DNA of 24,078 bases from the IMG/VR virus record IMGVR_UViG_3300003323_001438, positions 1 to 24,078 of that record; one strand, 5' to 3'. Made by a program: the position numbers and the translations under genes. The notes under the pieces were generated by a model. That model saw only the letters and a list, made by a program, of their open reading frames with translations, was not told the origin of the DNA and searched no databases. Source of the stretch: a virus. Position 1 is the stretch's first letter; each line of letters opens with the position of its first letter. This document shows, piece after piece, positions 7,104-16,091 of this stretch.

Positions 7104-10100
7104 ATGGGACAAAATTATTTCGATCAATTCGACACGATACCGGCGGAGCCAATCGCTGGGGAGGCCGAGGCTCCTGGCCTGCCTGCCTGGGGTACGGCCG
7201 AGCCGTGGACATTTCTGGATTGGGAAAAGTCGGCTCAGCAGGAGCTTCGCCCTCCCGGTGTGACTGAGGTCGCGCCACCCAGCGAACTGCCGGCCCTGCC
7301 TGCCAAATCGGGAGTGAACTTCTTCGATCAATTCGATGCTCCACCGCCCCGACTCCCTCTCCCGGACTGGATGACGAATCCCGCGCCGGCGAGCTGGGGA
7401 GACGCGATGCAGATCCTTGGGATCGGTAGTGCGCAAAATGATGTGCAGCCCGCCTCGGGCGGGCCGGCCAGTGGGATCGCCAGCGTCAGGCTGGCGCCAC
7501 CTCCCTCTCCGGCGATTCCTCCGGCAAGCCCTCCGCCAGCACCCAGGGTGCTCGATTCCCGGCTCATTCTGGGGATGAAGAATGCGTTCGGCGGGAATTA
7601 CGATCAGACCCGGCAGTGGTTCGCCGATAATGGCTATGGCAATCTCCTGCAGTCGAACTCGCCGTCGCAGCCATCGATGTTCGACCGCTATTGGTCGATG
7701 CTCGACGAATACGACCGGGACAAGCAGCAGGCGGACGATGCTCGGAAGGTGGGATTCGGAGAAGCTTTTGCTCGAGAGGGCTTGCGGGGGCTGGCGGGGA
7801 TTACAGAATACGAGAATCGGCTGCTGTCGCCGGCCTATTGGGGCCTCGATGCGACGAGCCGGGCGCTTACCGGATATGATCCAAACTTAAGCGCCATTCC
7901 CGATGCCGAAGCGGAACAGCGGAACTCGCTGGCAATTCAGCCATACGAGGAGCTTACGATTCCGGGGCAGATCGGGGCAGGATTCGGCGGGGCTCTGCCT
8001 ATGGTCATGACGGCGCCGATAGCTGGAGCGGCCCTGCCGGAGGAGGCTCTTACCACCGCGCCAGACGTCGCTCCGACATTGTGGAATACGACGAAGGCAG
8101 TGGCCGCACGCATCCCTCGCGGAATCTCAGCCATGATGCCCGCGGCTGCGCTGGCAGCGCAGGACACCGCAGACCAGGGCGGCTCCACAGCAGACCAGCT
8201 CAAGGCCGCATCTCTCACCGTGGCAATGGGCGCCGTGCCGATGCTGGCGGAGTCTGGCGCATCCAGCCTGCCATTGCGCATCGCCGAGCGCGGAGCGAAG
8301 TCCGGGGCGCTGGCAATACCTGCCAGCGCTTTGATCAGCAATCTCCAGAATCCCAGTCGCAGGACGACGGCGGGATTTACGGCGGACGACGTCATCTCGG
8401 CCATTCCACAGATAATTACGGGCGCTCTGACTGGTGGGAGAGAGCTGCCATTTCGCGGGACAGTCGGAGGGAGGCCATCGGTGGTGAATCCGGCTTTGCG
8501 TAATACGAACGCCTCCGCAGCAGGCGACGCATTCCTCGACCGCATGCGAGCGGCACTGGATCGGGATGCTGCGCGGAGGGCGAACAATGTTACGCCGCCG
8601 GGGGCGGAATCGTCGCCGGCAAATCCATATCGGAATGCCAATGGGAGTCTGAGGATACCTGAACGTGCTTCCAGTCGCACCGATCCGAATCTCGCGAGCT
8701 ACGAGGCGAAAATGAAGCGGATTGCGGATGATGCTCAACTGGCAGACGCGGCTTATGATCGGGTGCCGGATACCTTCGGAGGGAAAGTCATTGGGACGGA
8801 TCTCGCCCGGGAGCTTCTCGACGAATACGCAGCAGGCCGCGATGGCCGTATCAAATATGTGAACGCGACGGGCCGCGTGGCGCAGGCATATGCCAAGGAT
8901 CGGCTCTGGCGCGAGATCACGCATCCGGGCGGACGCGATCTACTGACGTTTACCGCAGGCGGCGTGGCTGCTGGGAAATCCACTGCGCTCACAAAAGCAA
9001 CGGTGGGCAACGCAGACCTCGTTTTTGATGGGACGCTGAGGGAGACGAAGTGGGCGATCGACACAATCGAGCTAGCGCGTGCCAACGGGTGGAAGGTGGA
9101 AATCTACTATGTCCAACGTCCGATGCCGCTCGTGATCCAGGGGGCAATCGATCGAGCCCAGCGTGAAGGCCGATGGGGAGCCATTGCTGATTTGCCGAAG
9201 ATTCATCGCGCCGCTCAGGAGTCGATCCTCAAAATCGCCGATGCGTTGAAAAGCGACCCCGGCGTGCAGATCCAATATTGGCTCAACGCTGGCACGCCCG
9301 AATATCCCATGCCGGCAAAAGCAATCGATCGGGCGGAAATTGACCCCGAGGGAGAATATTCTTATGCTGAAATTACCGATGACCAAGGACGAGCAAATCG
9401 AACTTCGACGCCAAAGAATGCGCAGCGCGTTCAGCGAGGCTTTCCTGCATATTGGCAAGGAGAAGTCGAGCGAGCCGTCGAAAGTGAGCGGGTGGAATCA
9501 CCAGAAGCAGGACAAGCTTACCCAGGAAGCTTTTCTGCATATTGGCAAAGAGAAGTCGAGCAAGCCTTCCGGCGAGCCGTCGAAAGCGGAAAGTACGATC
9601 CGGAAATCCTCGCCGGCCTCGCGCAAGGAAGTCCGGAATTAGAATCCATCCTGCACAGTGCGCGGGAAGTGCCCGGCGGATTGGACCGCATGCGGGCGGC
9701 GCTGGATGCGGATGCTGCGCGGGAGGAGAAAAGCGTCCATGCATCGGGAGCTGGGTCGTCCTCCTCGGATGATGGTATAGCCTCTGGCACAGCAATCGGA
9801 GATCTGGTACATTTCGAGCCGATTCCAAGCCATGAGCTCCCACTCGCAGAAGCCCTCCGAATCGAAGCCCTTGCGAGGGCTGTTCGAAAATCCAAAGAAA
9901 ACTCCGGAAATGATCCGGCGGGCGAGCGAATCGTATTTCAAGCGAATCGGGCACTGGGAGATCGATTTCGAGGAGGACGTGGCGCCGCAGCCCTCCGATT
10001 CATCGAAGACTTCGGAAGACTGACTGGCACTCGCGTCGTCTTCGTCGACTCCAACGAAGGGACGCCGTTTTTTTCCGGAGCGGTGGATCCCCGTGATCCG

Positions 10101-11147
10101 AACGCCATCTTCATTCACGTTCGTGGGAAGCGCCCGATCGATGCGCTCCTCGGGCACGAGTGGGGGCATACTCTCCAGAGGCAGGATCCTGCACTCTACC
10201 GGAGCCTGCAGCGCATCGCCTTTCGATATACCGGCGATTGGCGCTTGCGCGCCCGCACGTTCCGAGCCGGCGCTACATACCGCACTCCCAAACAGTGGGG
10301 CGTGGAGCTCACGAACAATTACCTCGGCGACGCTTTCATGGACCCCGACTTCTGGCGGGAGGTTCATTCCCACGTCGATTCCTCCTTGTTCCATCGCGCC
10401 TATCGATCGGTGCTCGACTGGCTCGATGAGCTGATGGCGAAAGCACGAGCCGGTTTTGGAACTGCGGAATTTGCCACGAATCTCGCGGCGCTTCGGCGGG
10501 AGTTTGCGAAGATGGTCGCCGAAGCCATACGGCGGAGTCCGTATCGCAACGGAGCGCTCCTCTCGAGGCTCGATCTTGATCGCATGGCTGCGACGCTCGA
10601 TGGCGATGCGGAAGTCCATTTTGCCCGCGTCGGACAAACTCTGCGCGAGGCCGATCGCACGATGGTCGAGGATGCGCCGGAGACACCGCTTCTCGACACC
10701 CGGGCGAGCAACGAGAAAATTGCCACGGAGGCGGCGAAAATCGTGAGTTCCTGGCCGGATACGATCAAGACCGCCGACGGCAGCACGATCAAGATGTTCG
10801 TCGCAGACCGCGGCTCGATGGCCGCAAGGGTGTTTCACCTGATTCGGGATGCGAATACGAAGGCAATTCATCTGACGAAAGCGGCCTGGCTCCCGCGCGT
10901 CGGCGAGACGCTCCGTAATGCACAGGTGCGATTGATCGATGCCCAAGAAGGCACACGAATTTATGTGCGGAAGTACAGGGGTGGGGTGAATCACGCCGTG
11001 GTGATACGACCAGACGGAACGGTCGAATCACAAAAGACATTTACCGGGAGTCTGACGACACAATTCCCGATCCAGAGTATATGGGATCCCCGAACTCGAC
11101 AGAAATATATGGAGGTGGACTGGGTCCGCCCCGATATAACGAACTGA
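7104..11147 (+). CDS. Large polyvalent protein: FDQFD N-terminus, zeta-type kinase, HEWGH metallopeptidase, PBECR-like nuclease
   Basis: Encodes 1347 residues. The start MGQNYFDQFDTIP is shared with the genes at 17611 and 21469, which supports ATG 7104. A second NFFDQFD lies at residue 72, followed by the conserved 'LPDWMTNPAPASWGDAMQ'. Residues ~260-470 are Ala/Gly-rich with hydrophobic stretches. A zeta-toxin-like P-loop kinase follows (GGVAAGKST, 619-627; 'VFDGTLRE'). A duplicated 'F.AYWQ.EVE' segment sits near 780-820 (90-base period in DNA). A zincin domain carries H1018-E-W-G-H1022 and a downstream 'GVELTNNYLGDAFMDPDFW'. The last ~150 residues ('RIYVRKYRGGVNHAVVIRPDG', 'QKYMEVDW') resemble phage Barnase/EndoU/ColicinE5/RelE-like nucleases. 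'DRMRAALD.DA' linkers separate modules. Such proteins are known from phages and conjugative elements and are thought to enter the recipient with the DNA. Confidence 0.8.
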   Translation: MGQNYFDQFDTIPAEPIAGEAEAPGLPAWGTAEPWTFLDWEKSAQQELRPPGVTEVAPPSELPALPAKSGVNFFDQFDAPPPRLPLPDWMTNPAPASWGDAMQILGIGSAQNDVQPASGGPASGIASVRLAPPPSPAIPPASPPPAPRVLDSRLILGMKNAFGGNYDQTRQWFADNGYGNLLQSNSPSQPSMFDRYWSMLDEYDRDKQQADDARKVGFGEAFAREGLRGLAGITEYENRLLSPAYWGLDATSRALTGYDPNLSAIPDAEAEQRNSLAIQPYEELTIPGQIGAGFGGALPMVMTAPIAGAALPEEALTTAPDVAPTLWNTTKAVAARIPRGISAMMPAAALAAQDTADQGGSTADQLKAASLTVAMGAVPMLAESGASSLPLRIAERGAKSGALAIPASALISNLQNPSRRTTAGFTADDVISAIPQIITGALTGGRELPFRGTVGGRPSVVNPALRNTNASAAGDAFLDRMRAALDRDAARRANNVTPPGAESSPANPYRNANGSLRIPERASSRTDPNLASYEAKMKRIADDAQLADAAYDRVPDTFGGKVIGTDLARELLDEYAAGRDGRIKYVNATGRVAQAYAKDRLWREITHPGGRDLLTFTAGGVAAGKSTALTKATVGNADLVFDGTLRETKWAIDTIELARANGWKVEIYYVQRPMPLVIQGAIDRAQREGRWGAIADLPKIHRAAQESILKIADALKSDPGVQIQYWLNAGTPEYPMPAKAIDRAEIDPEGEYSYAEITDDQGRANRTSTPKNAQRVQRGFPAYWQGEVERAVESERVESPEAGQAYPGSFSAYWQREVEQAFRRAVESGKYDPEILAGLAQGSPELESILHSAREVPGGLDRMRAALDADAAREEKSVHASGAGSSSSDDGIASGTAIGDLVHFEPIPSHELPLAEALRIEALARAVRKSKENSGNDPAGERIVFQANRALGDRFRGGRGAAALRFIEDFGRLTGTRVVFVDSNEGTPFFSGAVDPRDPNAIFIHVRGKRPIDALLGHEWGHTLQRQDPALYRSLQRIAFRYTGDWRLRARTFRAGATYRTPKQWGVELTNNYLGDAFMDPDFWREVHSHVDSSLFHRAYRSVLDWLDELMAKARAGFGTAEFATNLAALRREFAKMVAEAIRRSPYRNGALLSRLDLDRMAATLDGDAEVHFARVGQTLREADRTMVEDAPETPLLDTRASNEKIATEAAKIVSSWPDTIKTADGSTIKMFVADRGSMAARVFHLIRDANTKAIHLTKAAWLPRVGETLRNAQVRLIDAQEGTRIYVRKYRGGVNHAVVIRPDGTVESQKTFTGSLTTQFPIQSIWDPRTRQKYMEVDWVRPDITN
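7160..7252. repeat. GEGEAPAEP-type palindromic element inside FDQFD gene 1
   Basis: The right arm (7232-7252) is the inverted complement of a 'gccgaggctcctg ... ggccgagcc' left arm, which is interrupted by an in-frame insert encoding 'LPAWGT'. Equivalent elements lie in gene 2 (17670-17738, arms of 21 bases with one mismatch) and gene 3 (about 21526-21617). The element stays open in the gene frame and encodes 'AGE.E.P...AEPWT.LDWEKSAQQE.RP'. Confidence 0.7.
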
Positions 11148-11149
11148 GG

Positions 11150-11750
11150 CTACGCCAGTACGCACCTCAGGCGACTCCCCGCGACTCGATGGTCACTGGC
11201 CCTAATCGCGGGGAATTCCGAAGCGATGATCACGCTTCGTGGGGCAAAATTCAAGCGAAAGCGAGTTCCCGGAACCATGGACAGGCGGGGTCTGACCAAA
11301 TGAACTGAGACTACGCCAGTACGCACCTCAGGCGACTCCTCGCGACTCAATGGTTACTGGCCCTAATCGCGAGGAATTCCGCAGCTATGATCTCACTTTA
11401 TGGGCGAAATTCAAGCGGAAGCGAGGGTGAGGTACGACGTCGACCATAATGGTCAGAGGCTACGCCAGCACGCACCCCAGCCGACTCCCCGCGGCTGAAC
11501 GGTCACTGGCCCTCGCCGCAGGGCATTCCACGGCCATGATCGCCTTTCGTGGGCGAAATTCAAGCGGATGTGAGTTCCCGGAAGCGGGACAGGCGAAGTC
11601 TGAGCGAAAGAACTGAGACTACGCCAGTACGCACCTCAGGCGACTCCCCGCGACTCAATGGTTACTGGCCCTAATCGCAGGGCATTCCACGGCCATGATC
11701 GCCTTTCGTGAACGAAATTCAAGCGGATGTGAGGGTGAGGTACCGCTATG
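11150..11750. repeat. Four degenerate ~150-160 bp tandem repeats with a conserved hairpin
   Basis: Units begin with 'ctacgccag' at 11150, 11311, 11460 and 11619 (spacings 161, 149 and 159). Each has an 8-9 bp stem around a ~21 base loop 'ctcratggtyactggccctaa': arms 11177-11184/11206-11213, 11338-11345/11367-11374, 11487-11495/11515-11523 and 11646-11653/11675-11682. A second smaller hairpin follows around 'atgatc'. Base changes in the main stem are compensatory between units. The units do not keep one reading frame. The last runs into the colicin D gene at 11708. Confidence 0.8.
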
Positions 11751-12478
11751 CCGCGCCGTTTCGAGTCGACGGAAGGACGTTTCTCGTGAAGCTCATGGCC
11801 CAGCAATATGCCGGCGACGGGCATAAGTACTACGACCACCGCCTCACAAGAATAAAGGAGCTGACCGGGGAGCAGGAGCCCCCCGGCCAGAGAGCGGGCC
11901 CGTTCGCTCCCCGTCTCCGGGGCGACCTCAAAACAGCCCATGGGATAACCGTAAGGGAACTCCTACAGGGAGTCAAGATGAGCGACATCTCATCGACCCT
12001 GCCTCTGGTCGATCCAAATTGGGGCGATGACCATGCACGGCAGGTAAGCGATCCATTCATGGACCGCATGCGAGTGGCTCTGGATGGGGATGCAAAACTG
12101 CGAGGCGTCGAAGCGCCAGTAACCAGATCGGGTCGCGAACCGGAAACGTCATATTATCGAAATAGGAATGGCGAAATCATATTAGTAAAAATTGAGCCGA
12201 TGCAAATTCAAAAGAAATTCAAACATTCCATCGACTTCGGCATTCCGGAGAGCTACAATACCGATAGCTCGAAAGCTTTAGCTAAAATAATATCCCGGCA
12301 TATTTCTGATCCACATAACCAAATAATTGAAGGCACATATCGCGGGGTGCCTGTTGTGCATATTTTTGACCGACGAACAGGCATTGACGTTATTGTTGAT
12401 ACAAATGGAAAATTTGTCTCCGGGTGGAAATTGAATAAAAGTCAATTGCAAAATCTCCTCGCTCGAGGGGCTCTATAA
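11708..12478 (+). CDS. Colicin-D-type anticodon nuclease behind a polyvalent-protein linker
   Basis: Encodes 256 residues from a GTG at 11708; probably an orphan C-terminal piece of a larger effector, because no FDQFD or delivery region is attached. Residues ~8-50 are beta-rich ('RVDGRTFLVKLMAQQYAG', 'KYYDHRLTRIKEL'), then 'RELLQGVKMSDISSTL' and a 'PFMDRMRVALDGDAK' linker like those in the 7104 protein. The toxin domain (~145-256) has the colicin D pattern: K170-F-K172-H173, 'DFGIPESYN', 'IEGTYRGVPVVHI', 'FVS238-G-W240-KL', 'LLARGAL'. Known colicin D residues K608, K610, H611, S677 and W679 all have counterparts at nearly the same spacing. Colicin D cleaves the anticodon loop of tRNA-Arg. The domain is A/T-rich against its surroundings. 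Its stop lies 8 bases before the immunity gene. Confidence 0.82.
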   Translation: MNEIQADVRVRYRYAAPFRVDGRTFLVKLMAQQYAGDGHKYYDHRLTRIKELTGEQEPPGQRAGPFAPRLRGDLKTAHGITVRELLQGVKMSDISSTLPLVDPNWGDDHARQVSDPFMDRMRVALDGDAKLRGVEAPVTRSGREPETSYYRNRNGEIILVKIEPMQIQKKFKHSIDFGIPESYNTDSSKALAKIISRHISDPHNQIIEGTYRGVPVVHIFDRRTGIDVIVDTNGKFVSGWKLNKSQLQNLLARGAL

Positions 12479-12486
12479 CTAAATAA

Positions 12487-12762
12487 ATGGATATTTCGTA
12501 TTATCTCTCTTTAATTAGAGGCTTCATTGAAGGGGCGATCTCCATGTCGGAGTTCGAAAGTGATTATTTACGCACCTTTCTTGCGGATGATCGAGTTCTT
12601 CCGCGGGACATTTATCATATCCTTCATAAGCTATTTACCGATGTTGATGCATATTGCCAGGATGTTTCAATTCGAGGACCTGGAGATCTTGATGAAGCGG
12701 GTCTTTTAGCCTCGGCCCGTTCGGCTTATTCAGTATTGGCGAAAATTACGAAGGCGGCATGA
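12487..12762 (+). CDS. Colicin D-like immunity protein
   Basis: Encodes 91 residues, close to the colicin D immunity protein (about 87). The pattern 'YYLSLIRGFIEGAISMSEFESDYLRTFL' then 'IYHILHKLFTDVDAYCQD' and 'LDEAGLLASARSAYSVL' matches the all-helical bacterial self-protective colicin-like immunity family. It is acidic, as expected for a protein that mimics tRNA to block a basic nuclease. It starts 8 bases after the toxin stop, after an A/T-rich gap (ctaaataa), and shares the toxin's A/T-rich composition. Toxin and immunity therefore probably arrived as one cassette. Cytoplasmic. Confidence 0.75.
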   Translation: MDISYYLSLIRGFIEGAISMSEFESDYLRTFLADDRVLPRDIYHILHKLFTDVDAYCQDVSIRGPGDLDEAGLLASARSAYSVLAKITKAA

Positions 12763-12881: not shown

Positions 12882-13042
12882 AGACCACCGCCTCACGGAG
12901 ATAAAAGAACTGACCGGAGGGCATAAGCCCCCCGTCCATGGAGGGACTGGCTCGCTCCCTGTCTCCAGGGCGACCCCACAGTCCCGCATGAATATCCGAG
13001 ATTTGCTGCGCGACGTCAAAATGGGCGACCTCTCATCGACGC
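12882..13042 (+). pseudogene. Orphan second copy of the effector linker
   Basis: The plus strand encodes 'DHRLTEIKELTGGHKPP...' and 'NIRDLLRDVKMGDLSSTL', paralogous to 'DHRLTRIKELTGEQEPP...' and 'VRELLQGVKMSDISSTL' in the colicin D gene (11834-12000). Nothing recognisable precedes it in frame except short leader DNA, and the homology ends at 13042, exactly where the minus-strand Thg1 gene stops. I read it as the stub of an effector gene whose toxic end has been replaced or cut off by the RNA-repair/hipBA segment. It is unlikely to make a functional protein. Confidence 0.65.
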
Positions 13043-13812
13043 TAAGCGCTTTGTTGCGCGACAAGACGGTCAATGAAATCGCTATATTCGTCCCTCGTCG
13101 GAAGCTCCAAATCCACTTTCAAGCCCTTTCGGAGGGCGGCTTCCATCCTGCTGGTGACAGGGTTGAATCCTTCTCTTTCCAAAGGTTCCCAATAAACGCC
13201 AATGCCTCGCTTCTGCCAATTTGGAAGATGGTCGAAAGCGACTCCGTACTCGCGAAAAAGAAGCGCGTTCTTATCTGCGATCGACATGCCTTCCAGCTGC
13301 GCGGTTGCATTCTTAACGCTCAAGCCGCTATCCCGCAGCTTCCAGTAACAGTGCGCATTGAGAGCGTTTCGATTTGCGTCCTCTTGCCGCCACCGAAAAT
13401 AATCGACGACCTTTTTAGCCGAAGGGAGCTGGGAAATCCGGCAGTCGAACGCGGCTATATCTCCGAGGCAGAGCGAAAATCTTGCGCTGGCCTCTCCGGC
13501 GAGGATGGAATTCAGCTTGCGAGTCTTTCGCGCGAATGAATTTTCCTGCGGGTGGAAGAGCAGGGAAATTTCATCGCTCTGGGTGTATCCGTACAAAACG
13601 TTGAACCCGCAGTTCATCAGATGCTTGACCGTCTCGACCATGAGATCCCGGAATCTTTCGTCGAAGGGCGCGGTGAATCGATGCACCTCCTTCGTCAAAC
13701 GGGTGAAAGAGCGTCCGTCAATACGAGCCGCCATATAAATACCGGGAGGCACGCAAAGATCATCGCCGGTTTCGAACACACGCATCGCGGCGTCGAGATC
13801 ATCAAACTTCAT
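13042..13812 (-). CDS. Thg1-like 3'-5' RNA polymerase (tRNA-His guanylyltransferase family)
   Basis: Encodes 256 residues using ATG 13812, chosen for the GGAGG nine bases upstream; an upstream start at 13833 adds 7 residues. Thg1 hallmarks: 'MAARIDGRSFTRLTKE' with metal-binding D32, 'RFTAPFDERFRDLM', and 'LYGYTQSDEISLLF' with D80 and E81 (human D29, D76 and E77). The HINNLYN motif of true G-1-adding enzymes is not conserved; 'NALNAHCYWKL' occupies about that place, which suggests a Thg1-like protein that repairs truncated tRNA 5' ends by templated 3'-5' addition. It overlaps the end of the kinase gene upstream by 11 bases, so the two form one operon. Such pairs are known from bacterial RNA-repair systems. 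Confidence 0.85.
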   Translation of the reverse strand: MKFDDLDAAMRVFETGDDLCVPPGIYMAARIDGRSFTRLTKEVHRFTAPFDERFRDLMVETVKHLMNCGFNVLYGYTQSDEISLLFHPQENSFARKTRKLNSILAGEASARFSLCLGDIAAFDCRISQLPSAKKVVDYFRWRQEDANRNALNAHCYWKLRDSGLSVKNATAQLEGMSIADKNALLFREYGVAFDHLPNWQKRGIGVYWEPLEREGFNPVTSRMEAALRKGLKVDLELPTRDEYSDFIDRLVAQQSA

Positions 13813-14386
13813 GTTTCCAAGCCTCCACGGCAAATTCGTGATGCCCGATCATTTTTACGTAATACAACTCGTCAAATCCCTCTTCCAGTATTGGTAGATT
13901 CAGCCTGGATGCGGTTCCCTTAATGGCGAGATCGGGAACCTTCGCTGGTCCTTCCCGCCGCGAGTTTCGGGCCAGCGCGTCCCGGATCTTTGATTGAAAA
14001 TAATAACCGGCGATCCGATAGCCTTTCCCTTCCAAAAATCGAAAGTACCTTCGCCGATCGGCAACGGAGGGATTGGTATTATCAATGACGAAAGACTTTC
14101 CGGCGTCGATACAAGCCCTGATCAAGAGACTTTCCCTATGGCGCGTCCGTAACGTGTCCAGATTGATACGAACATGGGTGTCCGCGAATTGATGCGCGTA
14201 GAAGATCGATTTTCCGACGGCCTGAATGCCGATAAAGATGATGGCGGAAGGCTTTACGGATTCGCTCAACCCTGTGCAGCACCCTTGGTTCGTTTCAGTG
14301 GGAATGTCCCTTTTGGAGCATGGATCAAGCCACATGGGTGGTGGACTGTTGGCGTTTGATCCTGCGGTTTTCGGATGTGGTTTCAA
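13802..14386 (-). CDS. PNK-like P-loop kinase, RNA-repair partner
   Basis: Up to 194 residues from a TTG at 14386; the true start is uncertain and may be the TTG or GTA region near residue 40, since recognisable sequence begins at 'KPSAIIFIGIQAVGKS' (P-loop GIQAVGKS, 53-60). Further marks are 'RINLDTLRTRHR' and the DNTNP motif (102-106) followed by 'RRRYFRFLEGKGY', as in T4 polynucleotide kinase-type 5' kinases. The likely reaction is phosphorylation of a 5'-OH RNA end, as left by anticodon nucleases. It lies upstream of, and overlaps, the Thg1-like gene. No RNA ligase is seen in the window, so sealing would need another enzyme. Confidence 0.72.
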   Translation of the reverse strand: MKPHPKTAGSNANSPPPMWLDPCSKRDIPTETNQGCCTGLSESVKPSAIIFIGIQAVGKSIFYAHQFADTHVRINLDTLRTRHRESLLIRACIDAGKSFVIDNTNPSVADRRRYFRFLEGKGYRIAGYYFQSKIRDALARNSRREGPAKVPDLAIKGTASRLNLPILEEGFDELYYVKMIGHHEFAVEAWKHEV

Positions 14387-14538
14387 GCTCCTTCTCGGGG
14401 CGACGACGATGACTGGTATCCGAGGTCACCCTTGTAAGGTTTGAGCCGCGACAGGGTCGCTCCCGCAAGGTCCTTGTCCCCAAAGCATCTTGCAGGGATG
14501 CAACGTTCACATATCCGAGAGGCGTGAAAGTTTGCGGG
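14387..14538. other. Short gap between hipA and the kinase gene
   Basis: Only a GCGAC-AGG-GTCGC mini-hairpin (14448-14460) and GC-rich repeat-like sequence are seen. A promoter for the minus-strand repair operon would be expected here, but I cannot assign clear -35 and -10 boxes. Confidence 0.4.
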
Positions 14539-15837
14539 CTAGATCCGCTCCAACCGGGTGAGCACCGCATTGCTCACAGAGGAGTGAATGGCCTCTGGAA
14601 AGCCGGAGGGAAGCTGATTTCCGACAGTCTCGATGGCGGCTTTTGCGCTGGCGGCGACTTCAGCCAGGACGTCGCCTGCCAGCGAGGAGGGCAGACCGGC
14701 GCGCACCGCAGTTTGAATGAAATGGCGCCCGTAAATGCGGTCTATCGTGTAGTGCCGATTGTCGCCTGCGAACATCGCCATCTTCATCTGCTTCTTATGA
14801 ATCTGGTGTTTGTCGAGGCTCGGCTGGGCCGAGAGCACATCGTAAAACGGCGTAAGCTGAAACGCCCCCTGCCGCTTCAGAAAAATGCTGAAGTTCTTGG
14901 CATGTCCGTCGGTTGCGCCGATCAACCAAAACAAAACCTGTGCCTTGAGAAATGCACGCTGATCTTCTGCCGGACAATCGCTTCCTTTCAATAGATTGAG
15001 AATATCAGCCATTCCGGGGCCGCCATCGTTTTGATATTTGCGCGTGGGAGGAATCGAAAGCGCCTGACAAAAATCCTCTTGAGGCAACCTCAACAGTCGC
15101 CCATCCGAACTCCAGTGTCGGTCGAAGCGTTTTACGACGAGCGCTTTTGCTTTGCCGAAGGACATCATTCGAGTCTCGTTTACGGGCAATCCGAAGGTGG
15201 CCAGAAGTTTCAGGCAGTAATATTCGTTTTCGATGCTGTCCGAGAGATCGATGCCGTTCGGCAATGTTCCCATCGGCGTCTTGAGAATATGGGTGGTGGG
15301 CGTCGTCCCCAGAGGTTTCAGCCAACGTCCGTCGTAGTGGAGCAGGGCCGTCTTTTCCTGAGCCCCGGCAACGGAAATGCGAAACGCATCATCTTCTCCC
15401 AAGCCCAGAGGTGCCTGGGCCAGGCACCTCAAGAGCTTATCGATCTCATCGTCGCCAATCGGTGCTCCCTCGATGCGCGACGTGTCGTATTCCGAATGGT
15501 CGTCATCGGGAACAAACTGCAACGCTCCAACGCAGTCGCGGCCGATTTCGGATAAGAGGCTGTAGCCATCGGTGCCGGCAGCGCCGACTCTTTCGGCAAC
15601 GCGAACGCGCAAATTTCCATCTGGCAAAAGATTGTCGAACACCGCGATCACGGGTTCGCCGCGATATATGTCCTCGCGCAGCGGCAGGGACAATGAGACG
15701 GGAATTTGCTCATCCCCCTCCAACCATGATGGTGAGTATTGAAATGAAATGGCCCCACCGGGATGCTTCGATAACTGTCCGACATGCTTATTATTGAGCA
15801 GGACGCGGAGCGGTACGTATCGGGAGCGGCGCGGCAT
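14539..15837 (-). CDS. hipA: HipA-type serine/threonine kinase toxin
   Basis: Encodes 432 residues, the usual HipA length. The N-terminal subdomain ('RVLLNNKHVGQLSKHPGGAISFQYSPSWL'), the autophosphorylation/P-loop segment 'RISVAGAQEKTALL' (S155), the ATP-binding lysine region 'VVKRFDR' (234-240), the catalytic loop 'GATDGHAKNFSIFL' (D310, N315) and 'YDVLS' (332-336) are all present, so the kinase should be active. E. coli HipA phosphorylates glutamyl-tRNA synthetase and halts translation. The start overlaps the hipB stop in TAATG (15835-15839), so antitoxin and toxin are co-translated. Confidence 0.93.
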   Translation of the reverse strand: MPRRSRYVPLRVLLNNKHVGQLSKHPGGAISFQYSPSWLEGDEQIPVSLSLPLREDIYRGEPVIAVFDNLLPDGNLRVRVAERVGAAGTDGYSLLSEIGRDCVGALQFVPDDDHSEYDTSRIEGAPIGDDEIDKLLRCLAQAPLGLGEDDAFRISVAGAQEKTALLHYDGRWLKPLGTTPTTHILKTPMGTLPNGIDLSDSIENEYYCLKLLATFGLPVNETRMMSFGKAKALVVKRFDRHWSSDGRLLRLPQEDFCQALSIPPTRKYQNDGGPGMADILNLLKGSDCPAEDQRAFLKAQVLFWLIGATDGHAKNFSIFLKRQGAFQLTPFYDVLSAQPSLDKHQIHKKQMKMAMFAGDNRHYTIDRIYGRHFIQTAVRAGLPSSLAGDVLAEVAASAKAAIETVGNQLPSGFPEAIHSSVSNAVLTRLERI

Positions 15838-16091
15838 TAGAGAAAGATTCGGCCAATAGTTTCGGAAGAGCTCTTCGACCGGGGAGCAACTTGAAATTCC
15901 AGGTCGAGAGCCGCCAATATGGAAAGCAATGTCTGCAGTCGAGTCGTCGAGCTTCCTGTCTCGACCAGGGATATGGTCTCCTGTCGCAGAGCCGCTTTCT
16001 CCGCGAGCATTCCCTGGGTCCAGCCGCGCTTTTTTCGGGCACGGCGGATCACATTCCCCAATTGGCGCGGATCGCGGACCAAGTCATTCAT
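15837..16091 (-). CDS. hipB: HipB-type antitoxin and repressor
   Basis: Encodes 84 residues. A Cro/C1-type helix-turn-helix occupies residues ~9-65 ('LGNVIRRARKKRGWTQGMLAEKAALRQETISLVETG'), followed by the beta-strand 'LDLEFQVAPR' that mediates dimerisation in HipB. It neutralises HipA and represses its own operon. It is first in the operon, and palindromic operator candidates lie just upstream (16114-16201). The C-terminal tail 'SSSETIGRIFL' is short, as in HipB. Confidence 0.9.
   Translation of the reverse strand: MNDLVRDPRQLGNVIRRARKKRGWTQGMLAEKAALRQETISLVETGSSTTRLQTLLSILAALDLEFQVAPRSKSSSETIGRIFL

Follow-up and report, generated by a model that had tools for sequence, protein, structure and literature searches.

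A colicin D-type toxin and its immunity gene at a module junction in the polyvalent-protein locus of an uncultivated tailed phage

A colicin D-family (ColD) toxin and an ImmD-type immunity gene lie side by side in the late-gene cluster of an uncultivated tailed phage, in frame with a repeated junction between polyvalent effector modules. The window, that is the whole stretch of DNA analysed here (24,078 nt), comprises positions 1-24078 of a 28,560-base IMG/VR record. That the pair is a ColD-type toxin with an ImmD-type partner is nearly certain. For the locus as a whole we propose, with a probability of about one half, a ColD-family anticodon nuclease with ImmD-type immunity that was acquired horizontally, joined at an effector-module junction and is most likely delivered by the phage particle. 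Both protein families are known, as are ColD domains in virion-type proteins; the setting of the pair in a polyvalent locus is new, and peptide-seed scans of 2.9 million viral contigs returned no second ColD-ImmD pair on an LPD3-linker in such a locus. The known range of ColD tRNases (colicins, CDI, RHS, eCIS, MuF) is thereby widened to a polyvalent effector locus, where the toxin arrives with its own immunity gene.

Results

Identification of the toxin-immunity pair

The features of the locus are collected in Table 1. Both ORFs of the preliminary description were recovered at their coordinates and are separated by 8 bases, the toxin ORF lying within a stop-free frame of 259 codons. Using hmmscan against Pfam, we obtained a Colicin_D (PF11429) match for toxin residues 166-249, covering profile positions 1-83 of 84 (59.8 bits, E 3.4e-16; curated cut-off 25 bits), and a Colicin_immun (PF09204) match for the 91-aa protein (50.2 bits, E 4e-13; cut-off 22 bits); both matches are far beyond chance, and the proposed profile search came out in favour of the pair. 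Furthermore, phmmer matched the toxin to the colicin D crystal chain 1v74_A (8.7e-10) as well as to the nuclease chains of 1tfo, 1tfk and 5znm. Colicin_D was the only domain that the Pfam profile search found in the toxin ORF, with neither receptor-binding or translocation domains nor a Phage_Mu_F match, and PADLOC gave no match for either protein.

Table 1 Features of the toxin-immunity locus and the neighbouring polyvalent gene (positions in the window)
Feature	Position	Strand	Basis or content
Polyvalent protein, 1366 aa	7047..11147	+	FFDQFD-type N-terminal repeats, Zeta-toxin kinase domain, HEWGH zincin-like motif
Four tandem 157-bp repeat copies, from polyvalent ORF end to LPD3 remnant	11118..11743	+	Repeat family D1
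Toxin ORF, 256 aa	11708..12478	+	LPD3 remnant, linker and ColD tRNase domain; GTG start uncertain
LPD3 C-terminal half and inter-module linker	11741..12047	+	Homology to L004 of the related phage
Module-junction sequence encoding DPFMDRMRVALDGDA	12048..12093	+	32-nt core 12062-12093
Low-GC toxin-immunity cassette, acquired	12094..12762	+	GC step and end of homology to the related phage
Folded ColD domain, residues 146-256 (C-terminal 111)	12143..12475	+	AlphaFold and Foldseek; holds K169, K170, K172, H173, D176, S238, W240
ImmD-type immunity protein, 91 aa, four helices	12487..12762	+	Colicin_immun profile and model match to ImmD
Second, diverged LPD3-linker copy, 3' of the immunity gene	12883..13043	+	Nucleotide homology

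The motifs K170-F-K-H173, G209-T-Y-R-G and S238-G-W240 are all in place, and the spacing from His to Ser is 65 residues versus 66 in colicin D (H611/S677; numbering of PMC4964976 and PMC3482391), as had been noted before. In the alignment K169, K170, K172, H173, D176, S238 and W240 correspond to colicin D K607, K608, K610, H611, D614, S677 and W679, respectively. Among these, K607, K608, H611, D614 and S677 are reported as essential (PMC3482391), and K608, H611, S677 and W679 are among the residues critical for cytotoxicity (PMC4964976), so that every key colicin D residue has its counterpart; since PMC3482391 gives K607 and D614 as essential and both are present here, K169 and D176 join the residue list of the preliminary description.

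We saw no convincing start signal at GTG 11708, which falls within the last of the 157-bp repeat copies, and an in-frame ATG at 11978 is preceded by a better ribosome-site-like sequence. Promoter and terminator scans gave results at chance level, and Rfam and tRNA scans of the 24,078-nt window were empty.

Predicted structures

Both proteins were modelled separately. The AlphaFold model of the toxin (45 homologues) reaches a pLDDT of about 94-98 from residue 151 on, the linker being of low confidence, and Foldseek aligned it to 1v74_A with E 2.4e-7, TMt 0.76, rmsd 2.0 Å and 35% identity; all five PDB matches below E 0.001 were colicin D. The C-terminal 111 residues are thus modelled, confidently, as a colicin D-type tRNase. 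This superposition did not refute the predicted clustering of the catalytic residues. The immunity protein model has a pLDDT of 95.6 with ImmD as the first two PDB matches, the best being 1v74_B (probability 1.00, TM 0.75, E 2.3e-3).

Anatomy of the cassette

The only related phage that we found, IMGVR_UViG_3300037312_001873, defines the cassette boundaries. Its ORFs match LPD3 (1.8e-9 and 7.8e-14), and it carries LPD3 and the same linker, then stops at ...MRAALDANAKGRRPER, where the cassette begins in the window; the toxin is absent. Positions 11741-12086 of the window are 78% identical (nt) to L004 of this phage, whose full-length ORF matches LPD3, and the match stops at 12086. No LPD3 profile match was obtained within the window's own record, which retains only the C-terminal half of the module, whereas the homologues in the related phage do match; the N-terminal half is gone and four 157-bp repeats stand in its place. 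These repeats begin at the polyvalent ORF end, are 70-87% identical among copies and have neither a counterpart in the related phage nor an Rfam match. Thus, the "polyvalent-protein linker" of the preliminary description holds as polyvalent-module sequence in a late-gene cluster, refined to the C-terminal half of LPD3 plus an inter-module linker. Compared with L004, the LPD3-linker frame has a dN/dS of 0.33 (polyvalent core 0.19, collar protein 0.12); the substitution pattern indicates that this frame is under purifying selection, which argues against plain debris.

The toxin cassette starts in frame directly after the 32-nt junction, and the open frame crosses the join exactly. The 32-nt pattern occurs three times in the window (also at 8538 and 9684) versus zero expected by chance, and the encoded motif DRMRxALDxDA four times, the fourth at 10578, versus none in 534 kb of control loci; the junction repeats are 85-88% identical in nucleotides, and the three further motifs precede modules of the polyvalent protein. 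Cassette GC is 0.40-0.44 (about 0.42) versus about 0.60 in both flanks. The linker copy 3' of the immunity gene is 72% identical (nt) to positions 11834-12000 and about 74-75% to L004/L005. Together, these features fit the picture expected of a toxin-immunity cassette that was acquired and then joined on at the boundary of an effector module. A scan of IMG/VR with the junction DNA pattern gave 32 stretches, in which the motif stood beside FFDQFD-type repeats only in L110 and L130 (related contig); the sole further peptide match to the motif, L112, has no such repeats.

Phage context

Virion-type genes in the window encode a major head protein, a GTA-type holin, a tail collar protein and the polyvalent protein, whose kinase domain matches Zeta_toxin in Pfam (5e-9) and whose HEWGH motif was read directly from the translation. 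The toxin pair sits in this late-gene cluster on the virion-gene strand, in an ORF separate from the polyvalent protein and without its FFDQFD N-terminus. We rejected the idea that the toxin is made by readthrough from, or fusion to, the polyvalent ORF, as that ORF ends at 11147 and repeats occupy the gap to 11708. Scanning IMG/VR with the linker or aligning the polyvalent core led to the same single related contig, and a polyvalent-core scan of genome contigs gave nothing. No tyrosine integrase or other lysogeny gene was found in either phage record, both of which may be fragments.

Adjoining the toxin, minus-strand genes at 13042-16091, against the late-gene strand, encode a Thg1-type tRNA-His guanylyltransferase (1.6e-31), an AAA_33 kinase (1.8e-11), HipA (1.3e-53) and a HipB-like HTH protein. 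That genes for a tRNA-end enzyme and a kinase adjoin a tRNase gene could be due to chance or to a role in repair. In the related phage, DPBB and collar genes come directly after the LPD3 ORF.

Relatives of the ColD domain

A single-sequence scan of IMG/VR with the ColD domain alone returned no relative, and the ColD scan of genomes yielded 76 loci, 43 of which entered the alignment. D176 is conserved in 38/43 and W240 in 39/43, while position 238 is Ser in 35/43 and Thr in 8/43; K170, K172 and H173 are invariant in the 43 relatives but belonged to the search seed. In the tree, S-type pyocins and CDI proteins form a gammaproteobacterial clade that is split (99% SH-aLRT) from a broad clade with the window's toxin; the toxin's branch is long, leaving its exact place unsure. 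Judged by sequence, the toxin is thus a member of the wide ColD family of polymorphic toxins and not of the classical colicin/pyocin clade. The immunity protein is nearest (43-45%) to partners of ColD domains from the same broad clade (L040, L036, L095).

Delivery contexts of the relatives vary. One locus (L010) combines Pyocin_S with ColD, and the archaeon Halovivax carries an eCIS_core-ColD fusion (L030:3158-4291) with an adjacent ImmD-like gene, which suggests delivery by a phage-tail-like particle in haloarchaea. In cyanobacteria (L024, L026, L029, L041) the ColD domain is nearly solo, with 2-23 residues before the match, and is followed by an ImmD-like gene; short ColD and ImmD-like pairs without a delivery domain also occur in Chloroflexota (L025, L032). 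These solo pairs are candidate chromosomal toxin-antitoxin pairs. Additionally, ImmD-like sequences with no ColD toxin in the flanking DNA examined turned up in two further viral contigs of 57 and 150 kb (L100:6001-6195, L101:565-732); that of L100 resembles cyanobacterial ImmD and might serve a phage as an antidote against the solo ColD modules of its host. MT121968, at first sight a phage hit, was dropped because the match is the C-terminus of a CdiA-like hemagglutinin-repeat protein.

Discussion

With colicin D/ImmD (1v74, 1tfk, 1tfo, 5znm) the window's pair shares the tRNase fold, the aligned catalytic residues and an adjacent helical immunity gene, yet its domain is only 34-39% identical, lacks receptor and import domains, lies in a phage rather than on a plasmid and falls outside the classical clade. 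ColD in a virion-type setting is not new, and its novelty had been overstated: ColD fused to the phage head protein MuF, with MuF listed among trafficking modes, is described in PMC3482391, MuF toxins are described as a family of temperate phages (PMC5576092), and we re-found MuF-ColD in five IMG/VR contigs. Among our loci MuF-ColD is represented by L013-L017 and L090, with a Phage_Mu_F match in L015, L017 and L090. These proteins are likewise ColD toxins in phages with a small downstream gene, and head delivery was proposed for them; in contrast, the window's carrier is an LPD3-linker without MuF and its partner is of ImmD type, whereas Pfam gave no match for the two partners (129-131 aa) examined from MuF-ColD loci of IMG/VR. 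A MuF origin of the window's toxin was rejected, as it has no MuF domain.

The locus also resembles the phage polyvalent proteins and PBECR families, sharing with them (PMC5512222) the LPD3 module, of which the C-terminal half is left here, the zincin-like motif, the Zeta kinase, the late-gene context and mosaic modules. PBECR are phage-type BECR families, whereas the window's toxin is a bona fide ColD domain with its own immunity gene, a pairing that does not appear in the passages of PMC5512222 consulted. CDI/RHS orphan cassettes (e.g., relatives L007 and L020-L031) share the exchangeable C-terminal toxin with immunity, and the difference lies in the splice point, which in the window is the phage-specific DRMRxALDxDA junction.

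Our reading starts from the computed family, fold and active-site conservation of the toxin, the family and fold of the immunity protein, the cassette boundaries and the absence of the cassette from the related phage. A phage lineage would have gained the cassette by horizontal transfer and fused it, in frame, at a junction between effector modules of its late-gene polyvalent locus. The BECR-fold domain would cut the anticodon loop of tRNA without metal via H173, K169/K170, D176 and S238, and translation would stop; by analogy with colicin D, the toxin is likely RNase-active and may target tRNA, possibly tRNA-Arg, though its domain lies outside the classical colicin D clade. The helical 91-aa protein is expected to bind and block the toxin inside the producing cell, because both catalysis and blocking by a helical immunity protein are known of the colicin D family. 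We infer toxin-immunity binding as well as packaging: the toxin would be made late alongside the other polyvalent modules and be carried into the next cell by the phage particle or together with it, and immunity would spare the producing cell or a cell already carrying the phage.

Delivery by the virion, proposed in the preliminary description, is plausible yet somewhat doubtful. In its favour are the position among late and polyvalent genes, the MuF-ColD and eCIS_core-ColD fusions elsewhere, and the known packaging of P1 and N4 polyvalent proteins (PMC5512222); against it speak the separate ORF, unfused to the polyvalent protein, the loss of the N-terminal half of LPD3, the lack of a clear start signal and the existence of solo ColD pairs. 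More far-reaching, and in our view unlikely, is the idea that the locus is an effector rack, in which DRMRxALDxDA marks the module joins, toxin-immunity cassettes are taken in from bacterial polymorphic-toxin pools, the particle delivers the tRNase and rivals are shut down, while infected or carrier cells are spared by the phage-borne immunity.

The truncated LPD3, the unclear start, the recombination-grade identity of the junction repeats, the tandem repeats and second linker copy around the ColD module and a comparable arrangement on a Salmonella plasmid, with a short ColD and immunity pair after a hemagglutinin-repeat gene, would all suit a less probable reading, namely that LPD3-linker-ColD is a spare, possibly unexpressed module 3' of the main effector gene, with junction homology kept for recombination onto that gene and expression of the immunity alone sufficing, as in CDI/RHS systems. 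But the junction homology extends over 32-46 nt only, the frame is unbroken, its LPD3-linker part is under purifying selection, and we found no record with ColD swapped onto the main gene. Use within the infected cell, as a toxin-antitoxin or superinfection-exclusion module without export or delivery, is improbable: the ColD domain here is not solo but continues the reading frame of a phage effector-module junction, and the pair lies among the late genes, on the strand of the virion genes, even though solo or short pairs exist in cyanobacteria and Chloroflexota, a HipA/HipB pair lies 2 kb away, and the orphan ImmD-like proteins of the two other viral contigs would be expected if host ColD acts against phages. 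That the arrangement is an assembly chimera or a decaying insertion without function is very improbable; it comes from one metagenomic contig with a sharp GC step, repeats on both sides and no further copy found, but the reading frame runs precisely through the junction, linker sequence specific to the phage lies on both sides, and toxin and immunity are both intact, with every catalytic residue kept and confidently modelled folds.

The locus captures clearly how a toxin and its immunity gene have been attached at a recurring module junction, making effector gain by polyvalent loci testable, and a phage that carries immunity against a toxin able to halt translation would matter for phage-phage competition. 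The C-terminal domain of the polyvalent protein (10764-11147), without a Pfam match above cut-off, looks by eye like a BECR-type nuclease. NYFDQFD/NFFDQFD-type N-terminal repeats are common to three proteins of the window (7047, 17533, 21469), and near-identical DNA lies upstream of these (89% over 300 nt, 7007 versus 21372); this shared segment possibly serves packaging or targeting.
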